Of a stretch of DNA of 64,000 bases, positions 60,046-63,793 are shown one piece after another. Numbering within the stretch: the first letter of the stretch is position 1; every line of letters begins with the position of its first letter. Made by a program: the position numbers and the translations under genes. Under the pieces are notes generated by a model that worked only from the letters and a program-made list of their open reading frames with translations, did not search any database and was not told the DNA's origin. Source of the DNA: Myxococcales bacterium (lineage in GTDB: Bacteria > Myxococcota > Myxococcia > Myxococcales > Myxococcaceae); assembly GCA_016191815.1 (NCBI GenBank), contig JACPVI010000061.1:1-64000 (forward strand), read 5' to 3'.

Positions 60046-62193
60046 TCACGCCGGCTCGACGCGGCAGGTGAGCGAGCGGTAGGCGGGGAAACCGGTGAGC
60101 GGGTCGAGCTGGCCTCCATCGGTGAGCAAGTTGGCGTTGGCATTCTCCCAGCCCGCCGGCAGCACTACCGTCTCCGGGTGGATTCGCTCGGTGACTCTGG
60201 CCCTGAGCACGATTCGCCCGCGCAAAGACACCACCGCCACCCTCTGGCCGTCCTTCACTCCCGCCCTCCGCGCCGCCTCCGGGTGAAGCTCGGCCAACGG
60301 CTCCGGCATCTTCCCGGCGATGGAGGGGATGCGCCGGAACTGCGAGTTGATGTACGGGCGCGTCCTGGGGCCGGTGAGGAGGATGAACGGAAACTCCGCG
60401 GTGGGCTTCTCGCCCGGCTCGGTCCATTCCGGCAGCGGCGGCGCGCCGAAGCGCTCCATGGTGCCGCTGCGAAGCTCGATCCTCCCCGAGGGAGTGGGAA
60501 AGCGCGGCAAGGGTGTCCCCGGCGCCGCCGCCAGCGGAGTCAGCGCGCGCGATTCGTCCCTCATGAAGGGCACCCTCGGCGCGTCGATGGCCTCCTGGAA
60601 GCTGCCCCAGGGGAAGTAGCGGCCCAGCCCCAAGGCCCGCGCCAGCTCGAAGAGCACCTTCCAGTCCGGCCAGCTCTGGTGCTGCTCCGGCACCAGGCTG
60701 CTCCGGGCCACCTTGGCGTCCTCCTCGCCGGGGCCCACCTCCACCGCCTCGGCGAAGGTGGCCGCGGGCAACACGTAGTCGGAGCGCTCTCCCGAAGCGG
60801 TGAGGAAGGGGTCCACCGTCACCAGCAGCTCCAGCTTCTCCGCCGCCTCCAGCATCCGCGCCGAGCCGGGTGAAGTGACCAGCGCGTTGGAGCCGATGAG
60901 GATGAGCGCCCGGAGCGGATAGGGCTTGTCCTCCAGGATGGCCCGGGGGAAGAGCATCCCCTGGGCCTGGCGGTTGAAAACCTCGTAGAGCGGAATCTCC
61001 TCGTAGCCGATGGGGCGCGCCTGAGCCTTTGGAGGCAAAGGCTCAGGAGTCGCCAGCCGGTACAAAGGAGGGAGCAGCTCGCCGAAAAAGCCCGGCCCGG
61101 GCCTGTTCATCAGCTGCGCGCCGCCCGGCACGTCCACGTAGCCGCAGAGCGCGGAGAGCGCCGCCACCGCCCGCACCGTCTGGAGCCCGCTGCGATGATG
61201 CTCGATGCCCAGCCCATCCCACACCGAGGCCGGACCATGTTGGGCGAACATCCTCGCCGCCTCGGCAATCTTCGCTGCCGGCACCGATGTCACCTCGGCG
61301 GCGCGCTCCGGGGGGAATTGGGCCGCGAGAAGGCGGAACTCCTCGAAGCCCACCGCCTCCTCGGCGTGCTTGTGGTAGAGGCCCAAGGAGAGCAGCACCT
61401 GGGCCATCGCCAGCGCCAGGGCCCCGTCCGAGCCAGGCCGGACCTGGAGGTGCAAGGTGGCCCTCTCCGCCAGCTCGGTGCGGATGGGGTCCACCACGAT
61501 GAGCTTCTTTCCATCCAGCGACATCGCCTCGCACAGGTGCGCAAACGGCGGCGCGGTGAAGGTGGGGTTGGCGCCCCAGACCACCAGCGTCCGGGCGTGG
61601 CGCAGATCCGCCCTGGCGTTGGAGCCGTAGGTGAGCGCCTTTCCCATCCTCCCCGCGGCCTCGCACTGGCTCGCCACCGTGGCCAGGTTGGGCGTGCCGA
61701 AGGCCTGGCAGAAGCGGTGCAGCATGTGGATGAGCGGATGGCGAACGAAGGGCCAGCCGGTCTGGATGGCCAGGGCCTGCGGTCCGTATTGAGCCTTCAC
61801 CTGGTTCAGCCGGGAGGCGATTTCCGCGAGCGCCTGCTCCCAGGGCACTTCCCGGAAGCCGCCCTCCTCCCGGCGCAGGGGGCGCCTTATCCGGTGATGG
61901 GAGTGCACCACCTCGCGCAGCGCCCAGCCGTGGTGGCAGACGAAGCCCTTGGTCTGCGAGGCGGGGTCTCCCTCCACCCTCAGCAAGCGGCTCCCGCGCG
62001 AGGTGGCGATGACGCCGCAGTGCATGGTGCAGATGCGGCAGGTGCCCTTCACCTCCCGCTCGGCCAAGGCCTTCTTCCCGAACAGCCCCAGCCCCGCGCC
62101 GCAGGCGCCCAGCCCGGCTAGTTGGGCGAGCTGGAGCGCCCTCCTCCGGCTCATCGCGGTGCCCAGGATGGCCCGGAGAGGATTGCGCCTCAT
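60046..62193 (-). CDS. Tat-exported molybdopterin oxidoreductase (DMSO reductase superfamily)
   Basis: 715 residues from ATG 62193 (site GGAGGTGAAGGG). Twin-Arg signal 'SRRRALQLAQLAGL' near residue 15. A [4Fe-4S] site follows: 'GTCRICTMHCG' and 'GFVCHHGWA' (C-x2-C-x3-C-x26-C). The molybdenum ligand is probably Cys in 'VASQCEAAGRMG', as in Nap-, formate- or thiosulfate/polysulfide-type enzymes. The body has bis-MGD-binding motifs ('LVVWGANPTFTAPPF', 'LILIGSNALVTSPGSARM') and the C-terminal 'VLPAGWENANANLLTDGG'. Shorter than NapA. It is the last gene of an ATGA-coupled operon with NapG- and NapH-like electron carriers; substrate unknown. Confidence 0.9.
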   Translation of the reverse strand: MRRNPLRAILGTAMSRRRALQLAQLAGLGACGAGLGLFGKKALAEREVKGTCRICTMHCGVIATSRGSRLLRVEGDPASQTKGFVCHHGWALREVVHSHHRIRRPLRREEGGFREVPWEQALAEIASRLNQVKAQYGPQALAIQTGWPFVRHPLIHMLHRFCQAFGTPNLATVASQCEAAGRMGKALTYGSNARADLRHARTLVVWGANPTFTAPPFAHLCEAMSLDGKKLIVVDPIRTELAERATLHLQVRPGSDGALALAMAQVLLSLGLYHKHAEEAVGFEEFRLLAAQFPPERAAEVTSVPAAKIAEAARMFAQHGPASVWDGLGIEHHRSGLQTVRAVAALSALCGYVDVPGGAQLMNRPGPGFFGELLPPLYRLATPEPLPPKAQARPIGYEEIPLYEVFNRQAQGMLFPRAILEDKPYPLRALILIGSNALVTSPGSARMLEAAEKLELLVTVDPFLTASGERSDYVLPAATFAEAVEVGPGEEDAKVARSSLVPEQHQSWPDWKVLFELARALGLGRYFPWGSFQEAIDAPRVPFMRDESRALTPLAAAPGTPLPRFPTPSGRIELRSGTMERFGAPPLPEWTEPGEKPTAEFPFILLTGPRTRPYINSQFRRIPSIAGKMPEPLAELHPEAARRAGVKDGQRVAVVSLRGRIVLRARVTERIHPETVVLPAGWENANANLLTDGGQLDPLTGFPAYRSLTCRVEPA

Positions 62194-62762
62194 CCCTTCA
62201 CCTCCGGGGGCACGATGCGGATGGCGTGGGCCAGCTTGGGGCAGGCCTCCTCGCAGAGGCCGCAGCCCACGCACTTCTCCGGCTCGAAGAGCGGCGCCTG
62301 CTGCGGGCCGACCAAGACCACCGCCGAGCCGGCGTAGGGGCAGGCGTAGAAGCAAATCCGGCAGACGCCCTGGCCCGCCCAGGGGATGCACTTCTTCCGG
62401 TCCAGCACCGGCTTGCCCATCTTCACCTTGGCCTGCACCGCGGCGGGGTCTCCCGGAGTCGGCTCCAAGGCGCTGGTGGGGCAAACCTCGGTGCACTTCA
62501 TGCACAGGATGCAGCCCCTCGCATCCAGCTCGAGGAAGGGCAAGTCGGCCGAGAAGAAGTCGAGCCCGCTGTGGAAGCGGATGGCCTTGGGCGGGCACAC
62601 CTCGGCGCAGCGGAAGCACCTGATGCAACGGCGCTCGAAGTCGCCCAGCTTGGCGCCCGGCGGACGGATGCGCGAGGCCGCCTTGGCCAGCTTGGCCTTG
62701 AGGCCGGCTGTGGCACCGGCCAGGAGGGCGAGCGCGCCGCCGATGAAGCCGCGGCGATTCAT
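62190..62762 (-). CDS. NapG/MauM-type periplasmic ferredoxin with four [4Fe-4S] sites
   Basis: 190 residues from ATG 62762 (site GGAGGGCGGAG). N-terminal twin-Arg-like 'MNRRGFIGGALALLAG'. Four cluster motifs in order: 'CIRCFRCAEVCPP', 'CILCMKCTEVCPT', 'CIPWAGQGVCRICFYACP' (C-x8-C-x2-C-x3-C) and 'CVGCGLCEEACPK', the NapG arrangement. In Nap systems NapG takes electrons from the quinol dehydrogenase NapH. Its ATG overlaps the napH-like stop and its stop overlaps the oxidoreductase start, both ATGA. Confidence 0.92.
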   Translation of the reverse strand: MNRRGFIGGALALLAGATAGLKAKLAKAASRIRPPGAKLGDFERRCIRCFRCAEVCPPKAIRFHSGLDFFSADLPFLELDARGCILCMKCTEVCPTSALEPTPGDPAAVQAKVKMGKPVLDRKKCIPWAGQGVCRICFYACPYAGSAVVLVGPQQAPLFEPEKCVGCGLCEEACPKLAHAIRIVPPEVKG

Positions 62763-63793
62763 GCTCCGCCCTCCCCGCGGGGAAGTGGGGCCCCTCGGCC
62801 CCGCTCGGGGCGAGAGGGGACGGGGCGGGCGGGGGCGCCGGCCGAAAGAGCCGCGCGGCCTACCTCGAACTTGAGCGCGCCGGTGGGGCACACCGCGATG
62901 CAGCGGCCGCATCTTTCGCAGCCCGAGTCCAACCGGTCGCTCATCGGCTGCTGCCCCAGGTTGCACACCACGTCGCAGAGGGTGCAATCGGTGCAGGCCT
63001 GCTTCGCCCTCCGCACCCGGATGGGGGAGAGCGCTCCCAGGAGGGAGAACAGCGCCCCGCCCGGGCAAAGGGAGCGGCAGAAGCCCGCCCGGGAGACGAA
63101 GGTGTCGAAGAGGAAGGCCGCCAGTAGCACCAGCGCCCCACCTCCCAGCCCTCCGTAGAAGACGGCCCGGAATACCTCCCGGCCAATCAAGGAAGGCGGG
63201 TAGACGAGGCCGATGAGCTGGGTCCCGCCGAGCGCGGTGGCCAACAGCAGCGCGGCGAGGAGGAAAAGCGGCGCTCGCCGGGGCAGCCTCACCTCGGGCA
63301 GCCGAACGCCCACTCGGCGAAGGAGCGCCCTCGCCGCGTTGCTCGCCGCGAGCAGGGGCAGATAGGGACAGAGCCAGCCGCAGAAGAACCGCCCCAAGAG
63401 CACCACCAGGAGCAGCGTGGGGAGGACGCCGATGGCCACCTCCCAGTCGAAGGAGCGCGCGGCGAGGAGGGCGGCGGCGGCGAGCGGGTCCAGCATCTCC
63501 AGGCCGAGCAGCTCCACCGTCCAGGGAGCGCCCACCAAAGGAGGAAGCTCGAGGTGCGGAACCCGCGCGGCGAGGCCGACCCAGCGGCCGCCTCCGGTCA
63601 GGCCGGCGCTGTCCAGCTCGTTGCGCGAGAGGTGCCACAGCGGCGCCAGGAAGACCAGCGCCACCGAAAGCGAGAGAAAAAGCCGGCGGGTGCGCTGGTA
63701 GCGCCGCGCCCGCTTGAGGAACAGGTCTGCGGGCCCGATGCGCGAGAGGGCGGACTGCCTACCGGCGCGCTCCGGACGGCGGGCGCTGGCCAT
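62759..63793 (-). CDS. NapH/MauN-type membrane ferredoxin (quinol dehydrogenase subunit)
   Basis: 344 residues. Four to five transmembrane helices, with the two conserved Cys motifs of the family on the membrane face: 'FFCGWLCPYLPLL' and 'RAGFCRSLCPGGALF'. After the last helix are two [4Fe-4S] motifs, 'CTDCTLCDVVCNLG' and 'CERCGRCIAVCPT', and a charged Pro/Arg-rich tail. The N-terminal insert between helices 1 and 2 is longer than in NapH of enterobacteria. First gene of the operon; it would oxidise menaquinol and pass electrons to the NapG-like protein. Confidence 0.92.
   Translation of the reverse strand: MASARRPERAGRQSALSRIGPADLFLKRARRYQRTRRLFLSLSVALVFLAPLWHLSRNELDSAGLTGGGRWVGLAARVPHLELPPLVGAPWTVELLGLEMLDPLAAAALLAARSFDWEVAIGVLPTLLLVVLLGRFFCGWLCPYLPLLAASNAARALLRRVGVRLPEVRLPRRAPLFLLAALLLATALGGTQLIGLVYPPSLIGREVFRAVFYGGLGGGALVLLAAFLFDTFVSRAGFCRSLCPGGALFSLLGALSPIRVRRAKQACTDCTLCDVVCNLGQQPMSDRLDSGCERCGRCIAVCPTGALKFEVGRAALSAGAPARPVPSRPERGRGAPLPRGEGGA

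Follow-up and report, generated by a model that had tools for sequence, protein, structure and literature searches.

How is a Tat-exported molybdoenzyme supplied with electrons when the only carriers encoded beside it are NapH- and NapG-like proteins, and on which compound does it act? The genes that raise this question lie at the right end of the window, a 64,000-nucleotide stretch of DNA (G000:C46:1-64000) from a myxobacterial genome of 6.77 Mb in 89 contigs that is 98.8% complete, and all three are encoded on the minus strand. The napH-like gene (62759..63793) encodes a 344-residue polytopic membrane ferredoxin-type protein, the napG-like gene (62190..62762) a protein of 190 residues, and the third gene (60046..62193) the 715-residue catalytic subunit of a molybdoenzyme assigned to the DMSO-reductase (MopB) family by Pfam and an AF2 model. 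The napH stop codon and the napG start codon, an ATG at 62762, overlap in an ATGA (62759..62762, minus strand); a second ATGA joins the end of napG to the beginning of the molybdoenzyme gene (62190..62193, minus strand), and at least 17 other loci retain this four-base overlap. The coordinates, the strand and the gene order, as well as the two junctions, agree with those given in an initial annotation of the locus, and from the overlaps the three proteins would be expected to be produced stoichiometrically.

The two carriers had been described there as NapH- and NapG-like, an identification that the profile searches bear out, as NapH (E 1e-37) and NapG (E 2e-25) are the best NCBIfam matches, both below the curated equivalog cut-offs. 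In the NapH-like protein, a pair of CxxxCP motifs lies within the membrane part and a pair of [4Fe-4S] motifs at the C-terminus, with 12 cysteines that do not vary among 14 aligned sequences, E. coli NapH being one of them. The NapG-like protein combines a Tat-type signal (MNRRGFIGG) with four [4Fe-4S] motifs, and all 16 cluster cysteines are invariant in an alignment of 16 sequences that contains E. coli NapG. Identity to the E. coli counterparts is 30-32%, and the cysteine motifs together with the gene pair place both proteins among the NapG/NapH ferredoxin-type proteins; when compared with solved structures, their profiles match in ferredoxin stretches only. The structure prediction for NapG is poor (pLDDT 66.5, with a weak N-terminal half) and the fold search with this model listed no PsrB/DmsB-type match, so that a B-subunit-like role for NapG is argued from the number of clusters and the gene context only.

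The molybdoenzyme scores above the cut-offs of PF00384, PF01568 and PF04879, which establishes its membership in the MopB family, and the match to the DMSO-reductase fold spans residues 40-715. Its features were examined in a full-length alignment of 27 orthologs; the following positions are all on the minus strand. The initial annotation of a Tat-exported enzyme with a cysteine-type metal ligand is confirmed at the level of individual residues: the twin arginine R16-R17 (62143..62148) is present in 26/26 orthologs covering the site, with the motif SRRRALQL in this protein and the consensus TRRDLxKAAP, and the ligand Cys177, followed by Glu178 (61660..61665; C-E in 27/27), lines up with Sec140 in FdhH and with the cysteines that bind the metal in acetylene hydratase and PsrA. 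The N-terminal [4Fe-4S] cysteines C52, C55, C59 and C86 (CxxCxxxC...C; 61936..62040) are invariant in all 27 sequences, as is E331-H332-H333 of a GLGxEHH motif (61195..61203). A clade signature, TGWPxVRHP at residues 145-153 (61735..61761), is invariant in the orthologs and absent from the other aligned families, and His141 and Arg333 of formate dehydrogenase have no counterpart. The AF2 model (pLDDT 86.8) adopts the DMSO-reductase fold and is about equally similar to acetylene hydratase (Z 38.4), formate dehydrogenase (37.0), NapA (36.7) and ArrA (36.3).

None of the NCBIfam equivalog cut-offs is reached by this protein (best 312/666 bits), whereas three other enzymes encoded in this genome, NarG, a formate dehydrogenase and an arsenite oxidase, exceed theirs in the same test. 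In a 36-row tree inferred under LG+C20, from which ArrA, TtrA, SoeA and NasC were left out, the NapGH-linked molybdoenzymes form one clade with support 100/99. Identity with NapA is rejected by the family score (99/931 bits) and by the AU test against a joint clade (p 9e-86). The best-scoring family, formate dehydrogenase alpha (TIGR01591), is rejected at p 7e-8, and the enzyme has C-E in place of C/U-H and lacks the RGQNN motif. Identity with PsrA/PhsA is likewise rejected (244/694 bits against the PhsA cut-off; AU p 7e-4 for joining PsrA and its relative). ArrA and NasC, both outside the tree, are judged by family score alone, which speaks against each (81/1600 bits for ArrA, NF041714). Joining the clade to acetylene hydratase and a Rhizobium relative gives an AU p of 0.045, and the long branches involved make this rejection marginal. 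The phylogeny proposed with the initial annotation thus leaves the enzyme outside the characterised clades among those tested, with NapA, formate dehydrogenases and PsrA rejected by the AU test and acetylene hydratase only marginally so. That it represents a new lineage, defined by C-E at the metal and the GWPxVRHP and GLGxEHH motifs, receiving electrons straight from NapGH and acting on a substrate outside the assigned MopB families, is a tentative proposal that we hold to be rather unlikely in this complete form.

The contig runs past the end of the window (64000) to 274,580. The first gene upstream of napH is a small ORF that matches no Pfam family; it is followed by an NAD-synthase-like gene and then by a regulator of the Crp/FNR type, which faces away. 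No napA, napB, napC, napD or napF was found beside the operon, in the window or in the contig sequence beyond it, and a search for NapD (PF03927) across the entire genome, 98.8% complete, gave no match, with a positive E. coli control; the absence of NapB, NapC, NapD and NapF noted initially therefore extends past the window, where nothing napAB- or napD-like follows. NapG is present in a single copy. No TorD/NarJ-family chaperone (PF02613) was recognised in the whole genome, although NarG is present, and an unrecognised chaperone may exist. The genome contains 12 PF00384 matches, including NarG, an NAD-type formate dehydrogenase and arsenite oxidase; three further PF00384 proteins share the contig with the operon (L010, L011; C46, 86-135 kb), and two of them align without a cysteine at the metal-ligand position. 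The Crp/FNR-type regulator carries N-terminal cysteines and lies about 1.9 kb upstream of napH (L009:9693-10340; C46, ~65.7-66.3 kb), and a relative of it occurs near the operon in genome G048. An FNR-like box, TTGATGGTGGTCAA, precedes the regulator's own gene, this being one match where about one is expected by chance; the scan found no box upstream of napH, and matches were no commoner than chance.

Orthologs of the molybdoenzyme occur in 23/96 genomes of the same family, including the genome of the window, at 48-66% identity, and the next matches in these genomes drop to 34%, leaving a clear gap. Four more genomes from other families of the phylum bring the total to 27 Myxococcota genomes in five families (47-66% identity). 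The napH-napG-molybdoenzyme order, whose recurrence across the phylum had been suggested as a check, is found in these 27 genomes, with napG directly before the molybdoenzyme gene in 27/27 and napH before napG in 24/27, the gene being off the contig in the remaining three; the arrangement is therefore not due to chance. Other neighbours are variable and housekeeping-like (Dus, RsgA, RecJ, acyl-CoA dehydrogenase, desaturase), and this change of flanking genes among genomes indicates that the unit consists of these three genes and no others. Only 3/23 same-family carriers have NarG, which means that the distribution of the operon does not follow that of membrane nitrate respiration, and this co-occurrence gives no clue to the substrate. 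Further searches, which sampled the range outside the Myxococcota only sparsely, gave few relatives: a single-protein search of genome contigs returned two loci only, 1/245 Bacillota genomes carries a relative, of a flavoprotein-linked type, and one relative was found on plasmids (29% identity). In another Myxococcota genome (G135, L069:6259-9684), a DMSO-reductase-family molybdoenzyme is fused to a class-V aminotransferase/cysteine-desulfurase-like domain (PF00266, E 1e-76) in a protein of 1141 residues, a curious combination because cysteine desulfurases can supply sulfur to a Mo site.

Taking these observations together, we favour, with modest confidence, one membrane-bound unit in which electrons would pass from menaquinol through NapH and NapG to the molybdoenzyme and from there to a periplasmic inorganic oxyanion. 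The gene unit, its synteny, the conservation of cysteines and metal ligand and the separate clade are observed; the quinol partner, the direct transfer from NapG to the enzyme, the reducing direction and the substrate class are what we infer. NapH would exchange electrons with the (mena)quinone pool from the cytoplasmic membrane, and NapG, with its four [4Fe-4S] clusters on the periplasmic side, would be the direct electron donor to the [4Fe-4S] cluster of the molybdoenzyme, which after Tat export would reduce a small inorganic oxyanion (of S, Se, As or N) at the Cys177-ligated Mo/W-bis-PGD. In such a chain NapG and NapH would play the roles of the four-cluster B subunit and the membrane C subunit of Psr/Phs/Dms complexes, and no c-type cytochrome (NapB/NapC) would take part. 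Such a path from quinol oxidation at NapH, by way of the NapG clusters, to reduction at the periplasmic Mo site is the simplest interpretation. It draws support from the gene unit, the conserved redox cysteines, the modular use of NapH-type proteins, which work with many different reductases and oxidases of the periplasm (PMC8238504), and earlier proposals of direct NapGH-to-NapA transfer in Caldithrix abyssi and Desulfovibrio desulfuricans (PMC5317091).

The class of acceptor is suggested by the ligand and the location of the enzyme. In a published table of MopB proteins, those that are characterised, periplasmic and Cys-ligated have nitrate or compounds of S, Se or As as substrates, whereas a Ser or Asp ligand is listed for the reductases of organic N/S-oxides (PMC10100899). 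The cysteine ligand and the periplasmic location therefore favour an inorganic oxyanion and disfavour organic N/S-oxides, so that, of the acceptors listed in the initial annotation, the inorganic oxyanions are more likely than the organic oxides. Since the enzyme falls outside the families tested here, if only marginally in the case of acetylene hydratase, it probably respires a so far unknown compound with membrane electrons. The minimal quinol-linked chain with an open acceptor that had been suggested is upheld by both the phylogeny and the search past the window, its reducing direction being probable.

Other ways of operating the same three proteins have to be weighed against the reductive chain. 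The direction of electron flow cannot be read from the sequence, and NapH-type modules are also linked to oxidases (PMC8238504), while MopB members such as ArxA oxidise their substrate with a cysteine ligand (PMC10100899); the molybdoenzyme might accordingly oxidise a periplasmic donor such as arsenite, sulfite or another compound, with NapG and NapH delivering the electrons to quinone. The characterised NapGH pairs, however, work with reductases, and we consider this reverse operation unlikely; with formate as the donor it is disfavoured further, because the histidine after the ligand and the arginine of the RGQNNVQG motif are missing. The NapGH partners, the cysteine ligand and a structural match to D. 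desulfuricans NapA about as good as that to any relative (Z 36.7) would also fit a divergent nitrate reductase, that is, a shortened Nap system in which the usual partners of NapA have been lost. The NapA family score and the AU test make such a descent improbable, and the rarity of NarG among the carriers points the same way, although it alone does not exclude nitrate as the substrate.

There is no agreement that NapGH functions as a quinol dehydrogenase, and a maturation role has been proposed for these proteins in Epsilonproteobacteria (PMC6195509). Applied to this operon, NapGH would be a maturation or redox-priming device, and the real electron partner of the molybdoenzyme would be a soluble carrier from another locus. 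The neighbourhoods of the operon in the 27 genomes share no carrier gene, and we regard such a maturation role as distinctly improbable. Independently of maturation, a cytochrome whose gene lies elsewhere could carry the electrons in place of NapGH. In the Nap systems studied so far, where quinol dehydrogenase and maturation factor are the contested alternatives, other electron routes exist (PMC6195509). With NapGH as the sole encoded partner, the operon described here makes the disputed role directly testable.

The operon is a real, conserved combination of known parts that is undescribed in the literature searched: no published description was found in open-access literature, and a subscription paper could hold one. 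The best-known myxobacterial species are aerobes, and if the proposed chain is correct, this three-gene system adds a respiratory route to the myxobacteria.

Among known systems, the NapGH branch of Nap in E. coli, Wolinella and Campylobacter shares NapG and NapH with all cluster cysteines and a Tat-exported, Cys-ligated molybdoenzyme. It differs in that the operon described here lacks NapA, NapB, NapC, NapD and NapF, in its gene order (H-G-enzyme, compared with napFDAGHBC in E. coli) and in the catalytic subunit, which belongs to another clade than NapA. Acetylene hydratase (2e7z) is the top match among solved structures (322 bits by sequence, Z 38.4 by structure), only slightly ahead of other families that are nearly as good; unlike the molybdoenzyme of the operon, it is cytoplasmic, non-redox and without NapGH. 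Relatives at ~29-30% identity are encoded in a Solobacterium MAG (L033) and on the Rhizobium plasmid NZ_CP121664 (L066). The GVEH and GWENANAN...DPISGFP stretches recur in the Solobacterium protein, which reaches 418 bits against the family profile and in which no Tat arginines were seen; both relatives are adjoined by a pyridine-nucleotide (NAD(P)H-type) flavoprotein and a ferredoxin instead of NapGH, and they are probably an NAD(P)H-linked version. The overall plan is that of PsrABC, PhsABC and DmsABC, in which a catalytic subunit is combined with a four-cluster FeS protein and a membrane anchor. With PsrA, the molybdoenzyme has in common the N-terminal Tat signal, the cysteine ligand and the C-terminal DPISG region, whereas the FeS and membrane subunits of the operon are NapG and NapH rather than the PsrB/DmsB and PsrC/DmsC types.
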